Below are positions 19,642 through 34,598 of a DNA stretch of 64,000 nucleotides, piece after piece. The stretch covers positions 124,001-188,000 of the forward strand of contig NZ_FNSD01000001.1 in the NCBI RefSeq assembly GCF_900105625.1. The letters are read 5' to 3'. The notes under the pieces are model-generated. The model was not told the origin of the DNA. It did not search any database and saw only the letters and a program-made list of their open reading frames with translations. A program made the translations under genes and the position numbers. Within the stretch, counting starts at the first letter, position 1. Every line of letters starts with the position of its first letter. The stretch comes from Terriglobus roseus (GTDB lineage Bacteria; Acidobacteriota; Terriglobia; Terriglobales; Acidobacteriaceae).

Positions 19642-20892
19642 CTAACGAGCGGCGACCAGCACCTCGCGTTGAATCGTCTCAGCGGCCCGCTCCATCAGTG
19701 GTTCCAGGATTCCCATGGCGGCATTGACATGGGAGCGCTCGAGCAGGAACGCCGGCAGGAAACGCATGACGCTCCCTTGTACAAAGTTGAGCATCAGCCC
19801 TTGACGTAGCGCCTCCTCGGCCATGGGACGTCCCGGGAGCGTCAGTTCAAGCGCCTGAAGCAGGCCGACACCACGCGCCTCGACGGCGATGTCGCTTGAA
19901 GCCGCGAGCGCCTGCAGACGCTGCTTTAAGTAAAGTCCCGTATCTGTCACCCGGTCCAGCAGCCTCTCATCCTCAACGACGTCGAGAAACTCCAGTCCAA
20001 GACGGCATGCCAATGGGCTTCCGCCAAGCGTACTGCCGTGCTTTCCAAGGCCCAGGACGTGGAAAAGATCGGCGTTCACCAGGAGTGCGGAGAGCGGCAG
20101 CCCGCCGCCCAGAGGCTTGCCCAGGATCAAGACGTCGGGTTTAACACCGGAATGCTCGTACGCAAACCACTTACCGGTCCGGCCCAACCCGCACTGGATC
20201 TCGTCCAGAATCAGCAGTGCATGGTGCTTGTCCGCAAGGCGGCGCGCCTCCTGCAAAAAGTCGCGAGAGAGTTCGTAGACGCCGCCCTCACCAAGCACGG
20301 TCTCTAGAAGGATGGCGCAGGTGTCGTCGCTGACCATCGCGCGCAGCGCTTCAATGTCTTCACGCGGCGCGAAGTCCACCCCCGGCAGTCCGGGCTCAAA
20401 GTCATCGCGATACTTCGCCTGTCCCGTCACCGAGAGCGAGCCATAGGTGCGGCCGTGGTAGCTGCCTAGTAAAGAGACCACCCGCATCTTGCCCGGATGG
20501 AAATTTTCTTTGCCAAAGGCGCGCGCAAGCTTCAGCGCCCCTTCGACCGCTTCCGAGCCGCCTGTCGAATAGAAAGCACCCGCCATGCCAGACAAACTGC
20601 ACAACCGCTCCGCGAGTTCGCCCGCATACGGCGTGCAGTATTGCGGAGACAGGTGGACAAGTTTCGCTGCCTGGTCGGCCGTGGCCTGCACCATGCGGGG
20701 ATGGGCGTGCCCAAGGGCGTTGACGCCCAGACCGGCCATCATGTCCAGGTACCTGTTTCCCGAACCATCGAAAAGGTACACCCCCTCACCACGCTCCATT
20801 ACAACCGGGAAGCGTGCGTAAACGGGCAACAGGTATTCGCTGTCGCGACGAAGGATGGCCTGTGCAGCTGCGCTTTGTCCGAACCGTCTCAT
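19642..20892 (-). CDS. Class III aminotransferase, acetylornithine/ornithine aminotransferase type
   Basis: This 416-residue PLP enzyme is in the ArgD/RocD group. It shows YLDMMAGLGVNALGHAHP, FYSTGGSEAVEGALKLAR, SYHGRTYGSLSVTG, LILDEIQCGLGRTGK and ILGKPLGGGLPLSA, the last carrying the cofactor Lys. The family fits acetylornithine (argD) or succinyl-diaminopimelate transamination. No arginine genes are adjacent, so the exact substrate is open. AAAGG precedes the ATG at 20892. Confidence 0.88.
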   Translation of the reverse strand: MRRFGQSAAAQAILRRDSEYLLPVYARFPVVMERGEGVYLFDGSGNRYLDMMAGLGVNALGHAHPRMVQATADQAAKLVHLSPQYCTPYAGELAERLCSLSGMAGAFYSTGGSEAVEGALKLARAFGKENFHPGKMRVVSLLGSYHGRTYGSLSVTGQAKYRDDFEPGLPGVDFAPREDIEALRAMVSDDTCAILLETVLGEGGVYELSRDFLQEARRLADKHHALLILDEIQCGLGRTGKWFAYEHSGVKPDVLILGKPLGGGLPLSALLVNADLFHVLGLGKHGSTLGGSPLACRLGLEFLDVVEDERLLDRVTDTGLYLKQRLQALAASSDIAVEARGVGLLQALELTLPGRPMAEEALRQGLMLNFVQGSVMRFLPAFLLERSHVNAAMGILEPLMERAAETIQREVLVAAR

Positions 20893-25551: not shown

Positions 25552-26481
25552 TCAAACGCGCGCCTTCAAGGACGCGGGCAGCAGGAACGAAACCGTACGC
25601 GCTGGCAAAAGATCCATCGTGGCGGGAAGGCTGCCAATCCACTCGCCATCCGCTTGTACATACGTTTTTCCTTCTGCTCCATCACAGGTGAACGAGGTGA
25701 CGTCGAGCTTGCTGGTGAGTGGATTCCAACGTTCCAAGCGCAGCCATGCCGACAGGAACCAGAACGGCATGGCGAGCAGCGCCGGCGATTTCACCAGGAC
25801 AAGACGCATCGTCTTATCGTTCAACGTGGCTCCCCGTGCGACACCGGGGAAGATGCCGCCCAAGTTGCCGATGCGCAGCGCCATCGCGCTTACCGCCTGA
25901 GATGCTCCCCTTGTTCCGTCCGCAGTCTTCCATCGCACCGTGAAGTGATGGAAGCGTCCGCGCAAGAGTAGCCGAACAGCGTGCCACAGGTAAGACCATC
26001 GTCCCGCATGACTTCGGTCCACCGTAAGCATCCGGTACATCAAGGCGCCGTCAGGACCAGCGCCAGCCATCGTCAGGAAGTAGCGTTTGCCGTCCGTTGT
26101 GACGCATCGGCCAACGGCTGTAGTCCGCTCGTGTGTTGCCGCGTAGGCGGCGGCGGCTCGCAGTGGATCGGGTGGAATCGAAAGCTCGCGGCAGAGAGCG
26201 TTTGCGCTGCCGAGTGGAATGACGGCCAGCTTTGCAGATGTGCCGACAACGCCCTGTAGTACGTCGTGCACGGTGCCATCACCGCCGCAGGCGAAGATGA
26301 CTTCCGCGCCGTCTGCAATGGCAGATCGGACCTGCGCATCTGCACTACTGCGATGCGTCGTTGCACTGACTGTGAGGTCATAGCCGTACCCGCGCAGTAG
26401 CGCAGCGATCTGCGATACCGTTAGTTCACGCGAGGACCGATTGCGACCCGACTGCGGATTGTAGAGCAGCAGGCCGCGCAT
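25552..26481 (-). CDS. Diacylglycerol/lipid kinase family protein
   Basis: This 309-residue kinase of the DagK/YegS group phosphorylates a lipid hydroxyl, possibly diacylglycerol or another membrane lipid. YNPQSGRN at the start, the ATP-binding ACGGDGTVHDVLQG and IPLGSANALCRELS are diagnostic. The C-terminal half has a beta-rich region with VQADGEWIGSLP. It is the last gene of the minus-strand hopanoid series and its stop is 4 bp from the convergent regulator stop, with no terminator between them. A link with hopanoid lipids is only suggested by position. Confidence 0.88.
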   Translation of the reverse strand: MRGLLLYNPQSGRNRSSRELTVSQIAALLRGYGYDLTVSATTHRSSADAQVRSAIADGAEVIFACGGDGTVHDVLQGVVGTSAKLAVIPLGSANALCRELSIPPDPLRAAAAYAATHERTTAVGRCVTTDGKRYFLTMAGAGPDGALMYRMLTVDRSHAGRWSYLWHAVRLLLRGRFHHFTVRWKTADGTRGASQAVSAMALRIGNLGGIFPGVARGATLNDKTMRLVLVKSPALLAMPFWFLSAWLRLERWNPLTSKLDVTSFTCDGAEGKTYVQADGEWIGSLPATMDLLPARTVSFLLPASLKARV

Positions 26482-26493
26482 GATGTCTGCCTT

Positions 26494-27588
26494 CTAGGGC
26501 TGGATGACGATCTTCATGGAGTTGGCTACGGGGTGCGACGCAAGGTCGATGCCCTTTACGGCGTCTTCCAGTGAGAAGCGGTGCGAGATCAGCTTTGTCA
26601 GATCGAAGCTGCCATCGCGATAGCCGCTGAAGACAAGCTCGATCGCCTCGTCCTGAATGGCGACGGAGGATGAGTACGAACCCATCAGCGTCTTCTCATC
26701 CATGCAGACGGCTGCTGGATCGAAGGGCGCTTCGCCATGCTGCGTCTGCGCGAACAGGCAGACGCGGCCACCGGGCCGAATCGCATTCATGGCGAGCGTG
26801 ATCAGGCTGTTCGCGCCAACGGCGAGCAGCGCCACGTCTGCTCCCCGGCCCTCGGTGACACGTTTGCACTCCGCAACGACGTCGGCGTTGGCATCCAGCG
26901 GATGATCAAGGCCGTAGCCCGCTGCAACGGCGTGACGTTCCGCGTAGAGATCGCTCGTAAGCACATGCGGCGTCTTGCGCTTGGCGAGCGCCGCCAGCAG
27001 GATGCCGATGGGACCCTGGCCGATGACGAGGACCGTTTCGTCGTCTTTCAGTTCGAGGAGTTCGATGGCCTTGTAGCAGGTATTCACTGGCTCGATCCAC
27101 GCCGCCTGCTCGAATGGAATATCGTCCGGCAGCTTGATCAACCCCTTGCGGACGATCCAGTCCATGACGCGAATGTACTCCGCGAAGCCCCCACCGGAGG
27201 GTTCCCCGAAGCCCGCGGTTGCGCCGACCTTCTTGTAGGTCTCGCACTGCGCGAAGGTCTGCTTGCGGCAGTAGTAGCACTCGCCGCAGGGGATGTGGTG
27301 GAAGCTCATGACGCGGTCGCCGACGGCGAAGCCTTCGAGATCTTCGCCGACCTGCACGATGGTGCCCGCCATCTCATGCCCGAAGATTCGCGGCGCGGAG
27401 TGCGAGCCGGTATGGATCTTCTTAAGGTCCGTGCCGCAGATGCCGCAGGTGTCGATCTTCATCAGCACTTCACCCGGGCCGATGCCCGGGACGGTCACGG
27501 TCTCCACGCGCACGTCGTTTACGGCGCGATAGACGGCAGCGCGCTGCTCGTTTGGGATCTTGCTCTCTGTCTCTGCGGTAACACTCAT
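26494..27588 (-). CDS. Zinc-dependent medium-chain dehydrogenase (sorbitol/threonine dehydrogenase type)
   Basis: This 364-residue MDR enzyme has both zinc sites: the catalytic site TCGICGTDLKKIH with IFGHEMAG, and the structural site IPCGECYYCRKQTFAQC. The nucleotide-binding loop is VLVIGQGPIGILLAALA. The family oxidises or reduces polyols and sugar-like substrates with NAD(P). It sits 10 bp after hpnG, and AAGGAA precedes the ATG at 27588. In this operon it could reduce the ribose-derived side chain of ribosylhopane to bacteriohopanetetrol. That role is my inference from chemistry and position. Confidence 0.88.
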   Translation of the reverse strand: MSVTAETESKIPNEQRAAVYRAVNDVRVETVTVPGIGPGEVLMKIDTCGICGTDLKKIHTGSHSAPRIFGHEMAGTIVQVGEDLEGFAVGDRVMSFHHIPCGECYYCRKQTFAQCETYKKVGATAGFGEPSGGGFAEYIRVMDWIVRKGLIKLPDDIPFEQAAWIEPVNTCYKAIELLELKDDETVLVIGQGPIGILLAALAKRKTPHVLTSDLYAERHAVAAGYGLDHPLDANADVVAECKRVTEGRGADVALLAVGANSLITLAMNAIRPGGRVCLFAQTQHGEAPFDPAAVCMDEKTLMGSYSSSVAIQDEAIELVFSGYRDGSFDLTKLISHRFSLEDAVKGIDLASHPVANSMKIVIQP

Positions 27589-27598
27589 CGGTCTTTCC

Positions 27599-28288
27599 TT
27601 ACTTCGGTCGTTCAATTCCAATGTCATCGGCGATGGCTGCGCAAAGATTGGCGGCGGCCAGACTCGCCTGCTTGCCGAATTGCGCAAGCGAACTCCAGTA
27701 CTTCGGCTTGGTGGCAACGTGTGCGATGAAGCGTGTCGTTGCAAACCGTCCTGCCGCGGTCACGAACGGATTCATGTCCGGGAGGTCCTCCTCAAGGGTA
27801 TCGCTGATCGCCTTGAGGGCCCGAAAGCCCAGGCCATTCGCCTGCGCCAGTCGCGCGAGCGTCGAAGCTTCCATGTCCACCGCAACAGAACCCGCGTAGG
27901 TTCCTGCCAGGCGATGCTTCTCTTCACGCACCGCGACCCGCGAGGAAGTCAGCAACAAGCCACCTGATCCGTTTGCTGGCAGCATTTCACCAGTGTTTAA
28001 ATCGCGCACCATGCTTGGCCGGATAATGGCGCCCGGTGCAAGCTCCTCCCTTAGCGCGCCAGCCCAGCCGACCGAGAGCACTTGCATCGGTTCACACACT
28101 TGTCGTGCGCGTGCGAAAGAGCGCATCGCTGCGTTCGCCCCCATGCCACCTGCAAAGGCCATGATGGGACCGTTGGGATGTTGCCAGCCGTCGACGCCGT
28201 CCTTTGTCTCCAGCGCAGCCCAGCTACGAACCAGGGGCTTCAACTCGCCGGGCATAGCCGCGATGATCACGATGGCATCGTTCATCAT
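27599..28288 (-). CDS. hpnG: Hopanoid-associated nucleoside phosphorylase HpnG
   Basis: This 229-residue protein belongs to the purine nucleoside phosphorylase/MTAN family, in the form associated with hopanoid loci. HpnG removes adenine from adenosylhopane. Motifs include IIAAMPGELKPLV at the start, FAGGMGANAAMRSFA, VLSVGWAGALREEL and VAVDMEASTLARLAQ, where the Met-Glu pair binds ribose. It overlaps hpnA (GCATGATGA), so translation is coupled. Its context between hpnA and hpnH makes the assignment firm. Confidence 0.9.
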   Translation of the reverse strand: MMNDAIVIIAAMPGELKPLVRSWAALETKDGVDGWQHPNGPIMAFAGGMGANAAMRSFARARQVCEPMQVLSVGWAGALREELAPGAIIRPSMVRDLNTGEMLPANGSGGLLLTSSRVAVREEKHRLAGTYAGSVAVDMEASTLARLAQANGLGFRALKAISDTLEEDLPDMNPFVTAAGRFATTRFIAHVATKPKYWSSLAQFGKQASLAAANLCAAIADDIGIERPK

Positions 28289-29292
28289 GCGGTGGCCTCA
28301 TAGGCGGGAGCATAGCCATTCGCAACGAACCACTCCATTGCGGACCGCAACGCGGTTTCAACCGGCTTCACAGCGAATCCGAGTTCTCTCTCCGCCTTTG
28401 CGGACGAGGCGAACATCATTTTGCGGCCCATGCGTACGGCTTCCACGGTTGCGCGAGGTTCTTTGCCACGGAGCTTGCCGGTGATGGTCTCATCGAAGAA
28501 CGCAAAGGCCATGGCAACGCTGTGCGGGACCTTGTGCTTCGGAGAAGGCAGGCCACTGATCGCAGCCATGCGATCGAGGATCTCCTTTAAGGTGAGGTTC
28601 TCACCGCCGAGGATGTACCGATCGCCGGGTGTGCCACGATTTAGCGCAACGACATGCATGCGCGCGATCTCTGCCACATCAACGAGGTTCAAGCCGGTAT
28701 CAACATACGCAGGAAAGTTCCTGTTGAGGAAGTCGACGACGATGCGACCTGTCGGCGTTGGCTTGCGATCCTGCGCACCAATCGGCGTCGTCGGATTCAG
28801 GATCATCACGTGTTGGCCGGCACGAGCGGCGGCAATCGCTTCCTGTTCGGCAAGCCACTTCGACCGCTTGTAGTGGCCGATCATATCGGCTTCGCTGACT
28901 GGTGTTGTCTCGTCGACGATGATGTGCGACTTCGTGAAGCCCATCGTCGCGACACTCGAGGTGTAGACCACGCGTGGCACGCCAACCTCACGCGCCAGCT
29001 TGAGCAGCTCGCGCGTGCCTTCGACATTTGCCTGGTACATATCAGCAGGATCCGGCACCCATAGGCGATAGTCCGCCGCGACATGCACAAGCGCATCACA
29101 GCCCGTTAGCGCCGACCGCAGCGTGGAAACATCCCGGAGGTCACCCACGACCGTCTCGCCAACAGTGCCCTCGAGCGAGGCCAAATTACTGGAGGAACGT
29201 GTCAGCAGCCGTAGCTCGGCGCCACCATCGCTATAGGCACGCGCGACATGGCTTCCCACGAATCCAGTCGCACCTGTAAGAAAGACCTTCAT
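28285..29292 (-). CDS. hpnA: Hopanoid-associated sugar epimerase-like protein HpnA
   Basis: This 335-residue extended short-chain dehydrogenase/epimerase has the NAD-binding FLTGATGFVGSHVARAY, the active-site YKRSKWLAE and LNPTTPIGAQDRKPTPTG, a motif characteristic of HpnA. In hopanoid loci this gene is common but its reaction is not firmly established. The start is taken at ATG 29292, overlapping the upstream stop as ATGA; a GTG at 29304 would add four residues. Confidence 0.9.
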   Translation of the reverse strand: MKVFLTGATGFVGSHVARAYSDGGAELRLLTRSSSNLASLEGTVGETVVGDLRDVSTLRSALTGCDALVHVAADYRLWVPDPADMYQANVEGTRELLKLAREVGVPRVVYTSSVATMGFTKSHIIVDETTPVSEADMIGHYKRSKWLAEQEAIAAARAGQHVMILNPTTPIGAQDRKPTPTGRIVVDFLNRNFPAYVDTGLNLVDVAEIARMHVVALNRGTPGDRYILGGENLTLKEILDRMAAISGLPSPKHKVPHSVAMAFAFFDETITGKLRGKEPRATVEAVRMGRKMMFASSAKAERELGFAVKPVETALRSAMEWFVANGYAPAYEATA

Positions 29293-29477
29293 GAGATTGA
29301 ACACGCTGCTTTCGGTGCAAGTTCAGCTTCGTTCACCGGCGGAGTGACCCTCATCAGAACGAGTCGCCCATCTCCATCCTGTGTCGCTTCAAAGATAGAG
29401 CCCGGCCCAGCGGCCAGGCTCTTCGTCAGTTCGTCAGGTAGCGCGATGCAGCCGCAGTCCTGCACCTTGATCTGCAC
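29289..29477 (-). CDS. Small AbrB/SpoVT-like protein in the hopanoid operon
   Basis: This 62-residue protein starts MQIKVQDCGCIALPDELTKS, then has PGSIFEATQDGDGRLVLMRV. The pattern of a short strand, G-x-I-x-LP, a helix and then paired strands resembles the swapped-hairpin AbrB/MazE fold used by small transcription factors and antitoxins. It overlaps hpnA by 4 bp and follows the 150-residue gene by 3 bp. No toxin gene is adjacent. A regulatory role for the operon is plausible but unproven. Confidence 0.6.
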   Translation of the reverse strand: MQIKVQDCGCIALPDELTKSLAAGPGSIFEATQDGDGRLVLMRVTPPVNEAELAPKAACSIS

Positions 29478-29480
29478 GGA

Positions 29481-29933
29481 CTAGTCCAGCTTCTCCGGCT
29501 CAATCTGAATGTTCTTTTCGCCGGCTGCCTTTTTCTCCCAGTACTTCTTCACCCAGGCGTCAAACGTTCTGCCGGCAGCCGTATCACGACCGCTGAAGTT
29601 CACTGCGGCAATCTCGCCGTAGGGAATGCTGCGGCGAGAACGGTCCTCCCCCTTCGAGGGCATAAGACGAACCATCGAATCAAGAAGCGTCTTTCCCTCG
29701 CGGCGGTCGTAGATGTAACCCTCGACGACTTCGCCGGAGCGAAGCGTCAGCGTCACATCACCGCGATAGTCGAATGCCTTCTCGAGCGCATCGCGGGTTT
29801 CAGCCTCGGTTGCAAGCTCCGGGATCCAACCCTCAAGGTTCTCGCGCTCACGGCCTGCCATCACTTCAAGCTGGTCAGGAGAGGCTGTCTGCAACTCTTC
29901 AATCTTCAGGTGTTCCTGCTGGTCAGTAGCCAT
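29481..29933 (-). CDS. Uncharacterised 150-residue protein of the hopanoid operon
   Basis: This acidic, soluble protein has no signal peptide. The core FDYRGDVTLTLRSGEVVEGYIY...RRSIPYGEIAAVNFSGRD looks like a small beta-barrel with a repeated strand-turn pattern, reminiscent of Sm-like or ribosome-maturation barrels. The C-terminus is a charged helix (FDAWVKKYWEKKAAGEK). It lies 2 bp after hpnH and 3 bp before the AbrB-like gene. I do not recognise the family. Confidence 0.75.
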   Translation of the reverse strand: MATDQQEHLKIEELQTASPDQLEVMAGRERENLEGWIPELATEAETRDALEKAFDYRGDVTLTLRSGEVVEGYIYDRREGKTLLDSMVRLMPSKGEDRSRRSIPYGEIAAVNFSGRDTAAGRTFDAWVKKYWEKKAAGEKNIQIEPEKLD

Positions 29934-29935
29934 AC

Positions 29936-31087
29936 TTAGTCTCCCGCCACCAGCGATTCGGCGTGGTTCACGCGCTCAGCTTCAGGCGATAGAATTCCCG
30001 AGCCGATCTGCACCAGTTGGCCGTGGTTCGTCGGGCGCCAGTCGTTCAAAATCTTGTTTGCGCCGTCGTCCTTGTAGGTATTGAAGAAGATCGCCTTCGC
30101 GGTCTGCAGCAGTCCCTTAACGGAGCCAAAGGTGTAGTTGACGCCGCTGGCCTCATAGCCCGAGTGCACCATGCAGTTCGCGCAACGCGGATTGCCGCTC
30201 TCAGTGCCATAGTTGGCCCACTCGACCTCCTGCATCAGCTCCGCGAACGAGTCCGCATAGCCATCCTGCAGCAGGTAGCAAGGCTTCTGCCATCCGAAGA
30301 TGGAGTACGTCGGCATGCCCCAGGGGGTGCACGTCAGTTCCTTCTTGCCCATCAGGAATTCCATGAACATGGGCGAAGCATTGAAGCGCCAGGTCTTCTT
30401 GCGGTTCGAAAGCAGAGCGCGGAAGAGCTTTCGCGAACGGGCGCGGCCGAGGAAGTGCTTCTGGTCAGGAGCCTTGTCGTAGGTGTAACCGGGCGACACC
30501 ATCATGCTCTCGACGCCGGCTTCCATCAGCTGATCGAAGTGGCGGCGAACAGAGTTCGGATCTGCACCATCGAAGAGCGTCGTATTCGTCGTGACGCGGA
30601 AGCCTGCTGCGACAGCGGCATGAACGCCTTCCATCGCGATGTCATATCCACCTTCACGGCAGACACCGAAGTCGTGATGCTCGCGCTCACCGTCCACATG
30701 GACGGAGAACGACAGGTACTTCGACGGCTTGAACAGGTGCAGCTTTTCCTTCAGCAGCAAAGCGTTCGTGCACATGTAGACGTACTTCTTGCGCGCGACC
30801 AATCCGGAGACAATTTCCGGCATACGCGGATGCAGCAATGGCTCACCGCCGGGGATGGCGACCATGGGCGTTCCGCACTCGTCGACCGCCTTGAAGCACT
30901 CTTCGGGCGTCAGCTCAGCCTTCAGAATGTGGGCCGGGTACTGGATCTTGCCGCAGCCGGCACATGCCAGATTGCAGCGGAACAACGGCTCCAGCATTAA
31001 CACCAGCGGGTACCGCTTCTTGCCCATCATCTTCTGCTTCAGGACGTAGGTTGCCACGGTCCAAGCTTGCGAAACTGGAACTGCCAT
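29936..31087 (-). CDS. hpnH: Adenosyl-hopene transferase HpnH (radical SAM)
   Basis: This 383-residue radical SAM enzyme joins the 5'-deoxyadenosyl group to the hopene side chain, the first step of extended hopanoid synthesis. The cluster motif is FRCNLACAGCGKIQYP (CxxxCxxC). The rest follows HpnH: GEPLLHPRMPEIV, MVSPGYTYDKAPDQKHFL, the PWGMPTYSIFGWQKPCYLL segment and NPRCANCMVHSGYEASGV. GGAGGTAAAG is a strong ribosome site before ATG 31087. It follows shc by 67 bp. Confidence 0.95.
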   Translation of the reverse strand: MAVPVSQAWTVATYVLKQKMMGKKRYPLVLMLEPLFRCNLACAGCGKIQYPAHILKAELTPEECFKAVDECGTPMVAIPGGEPLLHPRMPEIVSGLVARKKYVYMCTNALLLKEKLHLFKPSKYLSFSVHVDGEREHHDFGVCREGGYDIAMEGVHAAVAAGFRVTTNTTLFDGADPNSVRRHFDQLMEAGVESMMVSPGYTYDKAPDQKHFLGRARSRKLFRALLSNRKKTWRFNASPMFMEFLMGKKELTCTPWGMPTYSIFGWQKPCYLLQDGYADSFAELMQEVEWANYGTESGNPRCANCMVHSGYEASGVNYTFGSVKGLLQTAKAIFFNTYKDDGANKILNDWRPTNHGQLVQIGSGILSPEAERVNHAESLVAGD

Positions 31088-31154: not shown

Positions 31155-33191
31155 CTAAGCGTCGCCGCGTGACATGGCCTTATCGTAGGTCGTCAGCGCC
31201 AGCAACGGGAAGTACTGCTTATACAGGTGGTACCCCAGATAGAACACACGCGGGAACCCTGTGCCGGTGTAGTAGCTCTCGCCATTACGTCCCGGTACCA
31301 ATTCACTCCACGAACCATCCTCAGCCTGGCGATCCACCAGCCAGCGAACGCCCTTCGCAACCGAATCAGACCGCGTGTCGCCACCAGCGAGCAGTGCCAA
31401 CAAAGCCCACGCTGTCTGCGATGGCGTCGAAGGACCGACTCCGCGCGATCCGGGATTGTCGTAGGTACCGCAGGTTTCGCCCCATCCGCCATCGTTATTC
31501 TGCACGGACCGTACCCACTCAACAGACTGCTGCACCTGAGGCTCGTTGGTATCGAAGCCGATCGCCTCGAGGCCACGCAGAACAAGGAACGTGCCGTACA
31601 GGTAATTGACACCCCAGCGGCCGAACCAGGAACCGTCGGACTCCTGCTCGCGCAGGATGAACTGTACCGCGGCCTCTACACGCTTATCGCGGCGCGTGTA
31701 GCCATAGGCAGCCAGCGTCTCAAGGATGCGACCTGTGATATCGACCGTCGGCGGATCCAGCATCGCGTTGTGATCTGCAAACGGGATGTACTGGAAGATC
31801 ATCTTCGTGTTGTCGCGATCGAACGACGCCCATCCGCCGTTGCGGCATTGCATGGCGAAGACCCAGTTGATGGCGCGTTGCGCAGCATCGTGCTGACGCT
31901 GTTCCTGGGGATGATCCACCATCTTCAACGCGAGCAGAACCTCGCCCGTGTCGTCTACATCGGGGTAGTGAATGTTATTGAAGAAAAACGCCCATCCGCC
32001 GGGCTCAACGTTCTTGACCTTCTGCGCCCAATCACCCTTGTGTCGATTCTCCTTGCTCAGGAGCCAGTCAGCAGCTTTGACCATGACGGGGTCAGTGGGC
32101 GAGATGCCTGCCTCACCGAGTGAAGAGACGACCTGCGCTGTATCCCAAACGGGCGAAAAGCACGGCTGCATGCGGAAGGTTGGCACCGGGTACTCCGGCG
32201 TTCCTTCCGGGCAATCGATGCCCAGCTTCTCAAACTCGTCCATGGCGCGAATCATCTGGGGATCGTCCAGCGAGTAGCCCAGATGCCGCAGAGCGACGAT
32301 GGCGTTGAGCATGGCCGGGTAGATGGCACCAAGGCCATCCGATCCTTCGAATCGCTCCAGCATCCACTCCTCCGCCTTCTTCAGAGCCTTCTTGCGTAGC
32401 GGTCGAATGTGGACACGCTCCGCTCCATGCACCATTCGATCGAGGAAGAGGAAGAAGTTACGCCAGGAGAAAAACTTCTTGTCCCATCGCAGATGAAGAT
32501 CCGCGTTCGCACGACCGCCGACGAACAGTTCGTCAATGCCCTGCTCAGGCGGCAGTAGCTTCAGGGGCTTCTTCGCGTAAATGATCGACAACGGCACAAG
32601 GATGCCGCGTGACCAGGACGAAATCTCGTAGATGTTGAAGTAGAACCAATTTGGCGCAAGAACGATCTCCGGCGGAATAGCCGGCACAGCGTCATAGTCG
32701 TACTGCCCAAAGGCACACAGGTAAATCTTCGTGAAAGTGTTGCACTCGACCACGCCGCCGTTGGCCAAAACCCATTCACGGGCTTTCACGAGCACAGGGT
32801 CGTCCTGGGACCAGCCCATCAGCTTCAGCGCGTGGTACGCCTTGACACCGTAGTTGATGTTGGACGGTCCACCCGGGTAAAGGCTCCATCCGCCATCGGT
32901 ATTCTGATGCCGCAGAATCTCGTTGACTGCGCGCTGCAATTTGCCGGGATCGCCTGTACCGAGCAGGGTGTGGAGGAAGATGTAATCCGCCTCCAGCATG
33001 ACATCGGCCTCAAGTTCGCCACACCAGTAGCCGTCTGCGTGCTGCTGGCCCAGCAGCCAATCCTTTGCCGTGGTCACTGCCGCACGGACACGGTCCAGAC
33101 CGAGGTCCAGGCGACCAAAGCGCGGCTGTGCGGGGCTCGCAGGTGCGGTGGTTGCCGCCGGCGTACCCGATCTGAAGTCTTGTTCCTGCAT
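31155..33191 (-). CDS. shc: Squalene-hopene cyclase
   Basis: This 678-residue membrane-associated terpene cyclase converts squalene to hopene/diplopterol. The catalytic DXDDT motif is present in HYPDVDDTGEVLLAL. Several QW repeats are visible: QHADGYWCGELE, QNTDGGWSLYP, CRNGGWASFDRD, SDGSWFGRWGVNYLYGT, NNDGGWGETC and AEDGSWSELV. The C-terminal GTGFPRVFYLGYHLYKQYFP is typical. It opens the minus-strand hopanoid series. Genes for squalene formation (hpnCDE) are not in the window. Confidence 0.96.
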   Translation of the reverse strand: MQEQDFRSGTPAATTAPASPAQPRFGRLDLGLDRVRAAVTTAKDWLLGQQHADGYWCGELEADVMLEADYIFLHTLLGTGDPGKLQRAVNEILRHQNTDGGWSLYPGGPSNINYGVKAYHALKLMGWSQDDPVLVKAREWVLANGGVVECNTFTKIYLCAFGQYDYDAVPAIPPEIVLAPNWFYFNIYEISSWSRGILVPLSIIYAKKPLKLLPPEQGIDELFVGGRANADLHLRWDKKFFSWRNFFLFLDRMVHGAERVHIRPLRKKALKKAEEWMLERFEGSDGLGAIYPAMLNAIVALRHLGYSLDDPQMIRAMDEFEKLGIDCPEGTPEYPVPTFRMQPCFSPVWDTAQVVSSLGEAGISPTDPVMVKAADWLLSKENRHKGDWAQKVKNVEPGGWAFFFNNIHYPDVDDTGEVLLALKMVDHPQEQRQHDAAQRAINWVFAMQCRNGGWASFDRDNTKMIFQYIPFADHNAMLDPPTVDITGRILETLAAYGYTRRDKRVEAAVQFILREQESDGSWFGRWGVNYLYGTFLVLRGLEAIGFDTNEPQVQQSVEWVRSVQNNDGGWGETCGTYDNPGSRGVGPSTPSQTAWALLALLAGGDTRSDSVAKGVRWLVDRQAEDGSWSELVPGRNGESYYTGTGFPRVFYLGYHLYKQYFPLLALTTYDKAMSRGDA

Positions 33192-33309: not shown

Positions 33310-34329
33310 CTAAACGCGAACTGTCTGCGATCCCGGTGCTGAAGCAATGGCTTGGACAATCTCAGGCGGCAGGCCGAAGCGAACATTCTCCGGCATCACC
33401 TCGACCTCATCGACATCACCATAACCCTTGCCCTGCAGGTACGCCACAACTTCCTGAACCAGAACCTCAGGCGCAGATGCACCGGCCGTAATGGCGACGC
33501 GCTCCTTGCCCTCGAGCCACTCCGGCTTGATGTCTTCCGCGCTGTCGATCAGGTACGACGTAGTGCCGATGTTCATGGAAACCTCAACCAGACGGTTGGA
33601 GTTTGAGCTGTTACGCGAACCCACCACGAGCACCAGATCGGCACCGTGCGCCACGTTCTTCACCGCAGTCTGACGGTTCTCGGTGGCGTAGCAGATGTCC
33701 TGTGCATGCGGTCCGACGATCTTTGGGAACTTCTTCTTCAACGCCTCGATCATGTACTTCGCTTCGTCAAGCGAGAGCGTCGTCTGCGTAAGATACGCAA
33801 CCTTCTCAGGATCGGGAACGATCAACTGGTCGACTTCTTCGATTGTCGAAACCACTTGGGTCACATCCGGCGCTTCACCCTGCGTGCCCTCAACCTCTTC
33901 GTGATCGCGATGACCGACCAGCACAAGGGAGTAACCCTGCTTGGCAAATTTGATAGCTTCGACGTGAACCTTCGTGACGAGAGGGCAGGTCGCGTCAATC
34001 ACCTTCAGCCCACGTTCTTTCGCGCGCTCCCGGACGGCCGGCGAAACGCCGTGCGCGGAGTAGATCACGCGCTTGCCCTCCGGCACCTCGTCCAGTTCAT
34101 TGACGAAGATCGCGCCTTTCTGGCGCAGATCGTCCACCACGTAGCTGTTATGCACGATCTCCTTGCGCACGTAGATCGGCGCGCCAAAGGTATCCAGCGC
34201 GATCTTCACGATGTCCACTGCGCGCACAACACCGGCGCAGAAACCGCGGGGCTTCAGCAGCAATACGCGCTTCTGCTTTGCGCTGTCGTTTTCGGTGGAT
34301 ACGGGCGGGTCGAGGGTAAGAGTGCTCAC
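33310..34329 (-). CDS. ispH: 4-hydroxy-3-methylbut-2-enyl diphosphate reductase IspH
   Basis: This 339-residue [4Fe-4S] enzyme performs the last MEP-pathway step, giving IPP and DMAPP, the precursors of squalene and hopanoids. The three cluster cysteines lie in KPRGFCAGVVRAVD, DATCPLVTKVH and DICYATENRQ. HGVSP, GHRDHEEVEG and TAGASAPE complete the signature. The open frame runs farther upstream, but the GTG at 34329 gives a normal N-terminus. TATACT lies 6 nt before it and no ribosome site exists, so the mRNA may be leaderless. It ends 118 bp before shc. Confidence 0.95.
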   Translation of the reverse strand: MSTLTLDPPVSTENDSAKQKRVLLLKPRGFCAGVVRAVDIVKIALDTFGAPIYVRKEIVHNSYVVDDLRQKGAIFVNELDEVPEGKRVIYSAHGVSPAVRERAKERGLKVIDATCPLVTKVHVEAIKFAKQGYSLVLVGHRDHEEVEGTQGEAPDVTQVVSTIEEVDQLIVPDPEKVAYLTQTTLSLDEAKYMIEALKKKFPKIVGPHAQDICYATENRQTAVKNVAHGADLVLVVGSRNSSNSNRLVEVSMNIGTTSYLIDSAEDIKPEWLEGKERVAITAGASAPEVLVQEVVAYLQGKGYGDVDEVEVMPENVRFGLPPEIVQAIASAPGSQTVRV

Positions 34330-34335
34330 CTTGAA

Positions 34336-34341
34336 AGTATA
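34336..34341 (-). promoter_or_regulatory. Candidate -10 element of leaderless ispH
   Basis: On the minus strand TATACT (close to consensus) is followed by TTCAAG and the GTG at 34329. Confidence 0.5.
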
Positions 34342-34442
34342 CCGCGAAGTAAACACCGAGTGGTCCGAATTGAACCTGCTCTGGTGCACAGTACTCACAA
34401 CTGGAGCGCGTTGCATGGCGCGATTTGGCGTTACGGTAAAGG

Positions 34443-34598
34443 CTAGAGCCGCCCTCCGCAGCTGGTGTGTGGGCAATGACAGCTAAGGGTATTCGGGGCG
34501 GCTGCAGCCGCATCTTTGCAGTTTTCCGAGCAGAACTTGCCCTCGGTGACCATGCAGCGGCAGGGCACGTGAGCACACTTCTTAGGGTCGTGGGACAT
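34443..34598 (-). CDS. Bacterial metallothionein (SmtA/BmtA type)
   Basis: This 51-residue protein contains eight cysteines (residues 8, 13, 15, 23, 27, 40, 42, 47) and histidines at 3, 10, 41 and 44. The pattern CAHVPCRCMV, then GKFCSENCKDA, then CHCPHTSC matches the bacterial metallothionein family, which binds zinc or cadmium in clusters. A CGGAGAG ribosome site lies about 7 nt before the ATG. It is encoded between recN and ispH on the same strand. No metal-responsive repressor gene is adjacent. Confidence 0.85.
   Translation of the reverse strand: MSHDPKKCAHVPCRCMVTEGKFCSENCKDAAAAAPNTLSCHCPHTSCGGRL

Follow-up and report, generated by a model that had tools for sequence, protein, structure and literature searches.

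Bacteriohopanetetrol and compounds derived from it serve widely as biomarkers. In Acidobacteria, hopanoid genes have been described in clusters in which hpnA and hpnG precede ug1, whose function is unknown, and ug2, a gene for a zinc-binding alcohol dehydrogenase that lies before hpnC; according to the accessible text of that study, both places are conserved and their function is unknown (PMC5462960, 2017). The same text gives hpnA as a proposed gene for the step from the ribosyl to the tetrol side chain, together with evidence against it, and in the accessible part of a later paper the enzyme converting ribosylhopane to bacteriohopanetetrol is described as not established (PMC12583986, 2025). 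No medium-chain dehydrogenase (MDR) is assigned to this conversion in the literature searched, which comprised literature listings and passages of these two papers, PMC5358736 and PMC6373157, with subscription journals mostly outside it. The 64,000-nucleotide stretch of the Terriglobus roseus genome analysed here (the window; assembly GCF_900105625.1, contig NZ_FNSD01000001.1, positions 124,001 to 188,000) carries a hopanoid cluster on the minus strand in the order ispH-shc-hpnH-u150-hpnA-hpnG-MDR1-DAGK, where shc encodes squalene-hopene cyclase (Shc) and MDR1 a zinc-dependent MDR. As in the published cluster C (hpnA-hpnG-ug1), MDR1 comes directly after hpnA-hpnG. Since the accessible text of PMC5462960 is silent on the product of ug1, MDR1 is equated with ug1 by position only; a second zinc MDR, MDR2, likewise corresponds to ug2 by position. 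A sequence-only reading of positions 26494-28288, a span made up of MDR1 and hpnG, had put MDR1 forward as a side-chain reductase. The present analysis replaces the single candidate by a conserved pair whose members are of opposite cofactor type, giving two named candidate genes for the missing step in Acidobacteriota, neither of them the universal enzyme. The opposite cofactor types and the pairing in a second phylum do not appear in the accessible text of PMC5462960.

The linkage of MDR1 to hpnG and hpnA is deeply conserved, and the gene order far exceeds chance. A survey of 247 Acidobacteriota genomes (requested completeness at least 90%) contained MDR1 in 43 at E <= 1e-96, Shc in 69 and HpnH in 68. 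The next recognised gene upstream of MDR1 is hpnG in 30 of the 43 carriers, hpnA in 11 and a proline dehydrogenase gene in two; neighbour counts recognise query genes only, and an upstream neighbour had to share the strand of MDR1 and lie no more than 1.5 kb away. With hpnG or hpnA as this neighbour in 41 of 43, a linkage that is due to chance or merely local is ruled out. The sequence-only reading had placed MDR1 10 bp after hpnG, which is exactly the distance in the window (hpnG ends at 27599, the MDR1 ATG lies at 27588), and had held that lack of linkage in relatives would refute the proposed reductase; the relatives show the linkage. MDR1 also tracks Shc, being present in 42 of the 69 Shc-positive and in 1 of the 178 Shc-negative Acidobacteriota. 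Two of the 45 matches were left out of this count (G145 and G128, E 5.0e-58 and 1.1e-57, 34-35% identity), and including them gives 42/69 against 3/178. The same association is found in a second phylum, Armatimonadota, where 201 genomes of untold completeness yielded 23 carriers at E <= 1e-94 from 26 matches: MDR1 occurs in 19/41 Shc-positive and 4/160 Shc-negative genomes, or 7/160 if the three matches left out (G401, G455, G459; E 5.6e-69 to 1.7e-65) are counted. Fisher tests of MDR1 against Shc give p values of 8e-28 (Acidobacteriota) and 7e-12 (Armatimonadota), which are only indicative because genome relatedness is ignored.

Loci taken from named records, the best 80 of 563 confirmed relatives, agree with the survey. 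Hopanoid (hpn) genes are found in 71 of the 80, a proline dehydrogenase gene without hpn genes in four, and neither in five (L104, L105, L109, L141, L147). L147 starts 255 bp before MDR1; Shc is present in its genome, where a second contig ends in hpnA-hpnG, and thus the cluster is possibly split. The typical order is ispH-shc-(hpnH)-hpnA-hpnG-MDR1-MDR2-hpnC-hpnD-hpnE. In one genome (G154) the cluster is divided, with hpnG-MDR1 about 50 kb from ispH-shc-hpnH-u150-hpnA, and MDR1 still follows hpnG. Another genome (G047, family f1) has kept shc and hpnH and lacks MDR1, MDR2, hpnA and hpnC together, a pattern that fits loss of a block or a gap at a contig end.

The MDR1 reading frame extends over 26494-27744(-). 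Translation probably begins at an ATG at 27588, which gives a protein of 364 residues and is preceded at a distance of 4 nt by the Shine-Dalgarno-like stretch AAGGAAAG. The domains PF08240 (94 bits, cut-off 23.5) and PF00107 (65.1 bits, cut-off 31.8) are both recognised. The presence of both zinc sites, as first read, is confirmed by an alignment of 119 rows (112 distinct proteins, some genomes being entered twice, and including L075 and L076 from the omitted matches G145 and G128). C51, H71, E72 and E166, the catalytic zinc ligands of the MDR family, are found in 119/119 rows, as are C104, C107 and C115, which in this family form the structural zinc site together with C101 (118/119). The motifs TDLKKI and HHIPC are near-invariant. 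Next to the catalytic cysteine are two lysines, K56 and K57, each kept in 117/119 rows; speculatively, they would help to accommodate a substrate with negative charge.

At position 213, where the second Rossmann strand ends, 118 rows have Asp and one has Glu. An acid at this place marks NAD(H) enzymes, and it is absent at the equivalent position of the NADP(H)-dependent ketose reductase 1e3j when aligned with MDR1. From these residues MDR1 is predicted to use NAD(H). Its AlphaFold model (mean pLDDT 93.8) has the MDR fold and matches 4ej6 (Z 39.9) and 1e3j (Z 38.5, 28% identity), the latter also being the best PDB profile match (5.6e-55). With the ketose reductase/sorbitol dehydrogenases 1e3j, 1pl6 and 3qe3, MDR1 shares the fold, the catalytic zinc ligands and the polyol type, but identity is only about 26-28%, and the NAD-type Asp replaces the NADP site of 1e3j. 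The 21 NCBIfam models matched by MDR1 include none named sorbitol dehydrogenase, and none reaches its own cut-off; thus the first description as sorbitol-dehydrogenase-like holds for a zinc polyol-dehydrogenase-like MDR, as a likeness only. The highest scores are to scyllo-inosose 3-dehydrogenase (IolM, 159.9 bits, cut-off 450) and NF003808 (153.1, cut-off 380); TIGR00692 gives 151.5 (cut-off 458.35). Membership of any matched equivalog is therefore ruled out, including L-threonine 3-dehydrogenase (TIGR00692, NF003808), which like IolM belongs to the same superfamily; MDR1 is far below the cut-offs of 380 and 450 bits, and no such pathway context was seen.

MDR2, which is 33% identical to MDR1 in T. 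roseus and has its own complete set of zinc ligands, is present in all 43 Acidobacteriota carriers of MDR1. It is the next recognised gene downstream of MDR1 in 24 of these. Among the 80 named loci it takes this place in 74, and in 58 it immediately precedes hpnC. In the window's own genus and in g18 it is separated from MDR1, while MDR1 stays by hpnG. T. roseus MDR2 lies outside the window (G000:C1:14427-15482), directly before hpnC-hpnD-hpnE, and the same arrangement was found in all five such genomes read (G000, G003, G084, G138, G239). In Armatimonadota, 21 of the 23 carriers have MDR2 as a neighbour of MDR1; G292 does not, and G477 stops at a contig edge. The MDR2 alignment (96 rows, 89 distinct; six loci omitted as short pieces, for an internal stop or as an unrelated paralogue) lacks an acidic residue at the cofactor position in 92/96 rows, which instead show K, R or N followed mostly by R. 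With D213 in MDR1, the pair therefore appears to combine an NAD(H) enzyme with an NADP(H) enzyme, MDR2 being the NADP(H)-type member as judged from these residues. Several genome groups are shared by the MDR1 and MDR2 subtrees in a quick tree of 76 thinned rows with SH-aLRT support only. Only its MDR1/MDR2 groupings were used, the paralogue rows from the own genome being uninformative (longest open stretches, some in a wrong frame, with branches up to length 10).

A gene for HpnJ (TIGR03471, 755.6 bits) is found close to MDR2-hpnC-hpnD-hpnE in T. roseus (L180:14791-16269, minus strand). Distant tandem MDR pairs occur in other Acidobacteriota families (L219, L220, L222, L227), with 31-35% identity to MDR1 and 41-45% to MDR2; no hpn gene was recognised near them, save a weak hpnA-like match in L222.

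In the proposed pathway, HpnH adds adenosine, HpnG removes adenine to leave ribosyl hopane, and the MDR pair would then interconvert the ribosyl aldehyde, in its open-chain form, and the corresponding alcohols, whereby bacteriohopanetetrol would be made or adjusted. The pair probably functions in the making of hopanoid or squalene lipids, and the likelihood that it acts at the side-chain step is nearly even. Somewhat below even we would place the fuller proposal that MDR1 is an NAD(H)-type zinc alcohol or polyol dehydrogenase, dedicated to hopanoids in this lineage, that works with the NADP(H)-type MDR2, most likely at the C35 side chain. It is possible, if on balance doubtful, that the two form a dedicated NAD-linked plus NADP-linked module for the ribosyl-to-tetrol stage of C35 hopanoids in Acidobacteriota and Armatimonadota, with unrelated enzymes serving elsewhere. 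The side-chain module is the best reading and draws on the position of MDR1 with hpnG and hpnA, its tracking of Shc in two phyla, the pairing, the joint absence in G047 and the polyol-type fold; from such features we infer the substrate, the direction of the reaction and the member that reduces. The activity proposed for MDR1 is the one that Bodlenner et al. reportedly observed in 2015 in an extract of Methylobacterium organophilum, where ribosylhopane was reduced; the phylum differs.

As for which enzyme reduces, MDR1 is a plausible candidate for the ribosylhopane reductase, although it is unlikely to be that enzyme itself. NAD(H)-type sites are more usual for oxidation. With its NADP(H)-type site, MDR2 is an equally good reductase candidate, and it might be the enzyme in question, with MDR1 oxidising the side chain or a by-product in a different, NAD-linked reaction. 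The absence of the NAD-type acid from nearly all MDR2 rows, as in 1e3j, and the presence of MDR2 in every MDR1 carrier would fit such a division of labour. In T. roseus, however, it is MDR1 that lies by hpnG and MDR2 that lies by hpnC-D-E, and both cofactor classes are deduced from residues only; we consider this arrangement distinctly unlikely.

The gene context in Armatimonadota points in another direction. The pair adjoins hpnC-D-E in 7 of the 23 carriers (L254, L255, L256, L258, L260, L268, L269) and adjoins hpnG or hpnA in none of the 23, several of which are on short contigs (a weak match resembling hpnA lies about 7 kb away in L253). Among the 19 Armatimonadota genomes with both MDR1 and Shc, hpnH is beside shc in nine, three are at contig ends, and no hpnH was found in the stretch read around shc in seven (G298, G313, G320, G344, G348, G373, G450). 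The position beside hpnC-D-E in Armatimonadota and the frequent position of MDR2 before hpnC would fit a role at the squalene or isoprenoid end, where the pair might act on an alcohol or aldehyde near farnesyl diphosphate, on hydroxysqualene or on another squalene-derived lipid. Such a role would also accommodate a UBP4 bacterium without Shc that has the pair beside hpnC-D-E (L114), two Armatimonadota (G321, G399) with the same arrangement in which Shc was not found, and the presence of HpnC in four of seven Shc-negative Acidobacteriota and UBP4 carriers (G243, G283, G287, G290; not found in G284, G286, G288). In the window's genome, though, MDR1 is away from hpnC-D-E and with hpnG; the missing Shc may reflect gaps in metagenome-assembled genomes of untold completeness; and we know of no squalene step that needs two zinc alcohol dehydrogenases. 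A squalene-end role is thus the main rival of the side-chain module, but an unlikely one.

A ribosylhopane reductase would be expected only in hopanoid-capable genomes, and this is not the distribution found. Shc-negative carriers of MDR1 occur in Acidobacteriota and UBP4 (G243, G283, G284, G286, G287, G288 and the UBP4 genome G290) and in Armatimonadota (G292, G321, G399, G437), with MDR2 beside MDR1 in all except G292. For most of these genomes completeness is untold, but G243 is listed at 100%; G285 looks like the same genome as G243. MDR1 is not broken in G243, where an apparent TAG is the natural stop of a 349-residue protein. In addition, an Acidobacteriota clade that includes Vicinamibacteria has MDR1-MDR2 after a proline dehydrogenase-like gene (L070, L074, L100-L103), mostly in genomes without Shc; in the tree, MDR1 rows linked to proline dehydrogenase group with L104 and L105 in a single clade. 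MDR2 occurs without MDR1 in eight survey genomes, at E 8.6e-123 in G156, which also lacks Shc, and at E 1e-81 to 1e-89 in the other seven. Such cases might indicate a general alcohol or polyol dehydrogenase module whose position among hopanoid genes is ancestral and without function in the pathway, and the three carriers with neither Shc nor HpnC (G284, G286, G288) would fit this reading. The strong co-occurrence with Shc in two phyla and a linkage that survives several rearrangements argue otherwise. Likewise, of the 14 ADH_N places in the T. roseus genome, eight had short flanks read, and of these eight only MDR1 and MDR2 lie beside hpn genes, although the queries for the remaining six of the eight did not include hpnC-D-E. 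A general module is improbable and ranks last among the alternatives weighed here.

The converse also occurs, as 27 of the 69 Shc-positive Acidobacteriota are without MDR1, which therefore cannot be the universal bacteriohopanetetrol reductase. The hopanoid region was read in 16 of these 27, and in eight (G068, G103, G118, G120, G175, G214, G265, G274) shc, hpnH, hpnA and a weak hpnG match are together with no MDR. Chloracidobacterium thermophilum has bacteriohopanetetrol derivatives yet is without the cluster organisation and ug2, according to the accessible text of PMC5462960. Family f30 (11 genomes) has MDR1 after hpnA with no hpnG between. The cases of these two paragraphs, the Armatimonadota context and the oxidative leaning of NAD(H)-type sites all weigh against a side-chain role. 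Of the original claim of a side-chain reductase, the enzyme family and the conserved linkage stand; the NAD(H)-type site, an NADP(H)-type partner, the Shc-negative carriers, the hpnC-D-E context in Armatimonadota and the 27 genomes without MDR1 weaken the proposed function. The clusters that lack an MDR would suit a pair that modifies finished polyols, epimerising or oxidising a side-chain hydroxyl by NAD-linked oxidation and subsequent NADPH-linked reduction. Opposite cofactor types within one conserved pair would serve such a reaction, and a third enzyme of the NAD(P) type, HpnA, is often encoded next to it. Against this, mainly tetrafunctionalised polyols are reported for these bacteria, with no sign of a special product in the accessible text (PMC5462960), and modification of finished polyols is improbable.

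The genes around MDR1 in the window are given in the following table. HpnH, HpnA, Shc and IspH pass their curated NCBIfam cut-offs. HpnG does not, and its name therefore rests on superfamily, position and a partial score.

Table. Features of the Terriglobus roseus hopanoid cluster, in window coordinates.
Feature	Position	Strand	Product and evidence
DAGK	25552..26481	-	diacylglycerol/lipid kinase family gene, 12 bp 3' of MDR1; PF00781 99.2 bits
MDR1	26494..27588	-	zinc-dependent medium-chain dehydrogenase, 364 aa, predicted NAD(H)-type; PF08240, PF00107, ligands, AlphaFold
Shine-Dalgarno-like AAGGAAAG	27593..27600	-	5' of MDR1, overlaps hpnG stop codon; read from sequence
hpnG	27599..28288	-	hopanoid-associated nucleoside phosphorylase/nucleosidase family; TIGR03468 80.3 bits (cut-off 187.1), PF01048 55.6 bits
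hpnA	28285..29304	-	hopanoid-associated SDR ('sugar epimerase'); TIGR03466 465.3 bits (cut-off 367.65)
u150	29481..29933	-	conserved 150-aa protein, between hpnH and hpnA
hpnH	29936..31087	-	adenosylhopane synthase (radical SAM); TIGR03470 520.5 bits (cut-off 225.05)
shc (hpnF)	31155..33191	-	squalene-hopene cyclase; TIGR01507 743.8 bits (cut-off 431.1)
ispH	33310..34476	-	HMB-PP reductase; TIGR00216 335.7 bits (cut-off 187.85)

The lipid kinase gene, searched with the window's copy, adjoins MDR1 in 3 of 4 survey genomes of the same genus and in 0 of 39 other carriers. A scan for promoters and terminators gave matches no commoner than in shuffled sequence. The u150 gene adjoins hpnH in 14 of the 80 named loci and is probably, judged by its position, ug3 of PMC5462960. 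Neither Pfam nor NCBIfam gives a match to it at E 1e-5, nor does Pfam at 0.01, and PADLOC gave no lead. Its low-confidence model (mean pLDDT 65.4) suggests a small beta-barrel core, with weak Foldseek matches that include Sm/Hfq-like and WYL proteins (best E 0.006, none below 0.001).

One genome, G011, has two equally scoring MDR1 copies with the same flanking genes (L010, L034), about 460 kb apart on one contig; this is possibly an assembly duplication, the genome being listed with 10% contamination. Elsewhere in the window, positions 19642-20892(-) encode a class III aminotransferase of the ArgD family that scores just below the cut-off of TIGR00707 (400.9 against 410.05 bits); ArgD-type aminotransferases are closely related to HpnO, according to the accessible text of PMC5462960.

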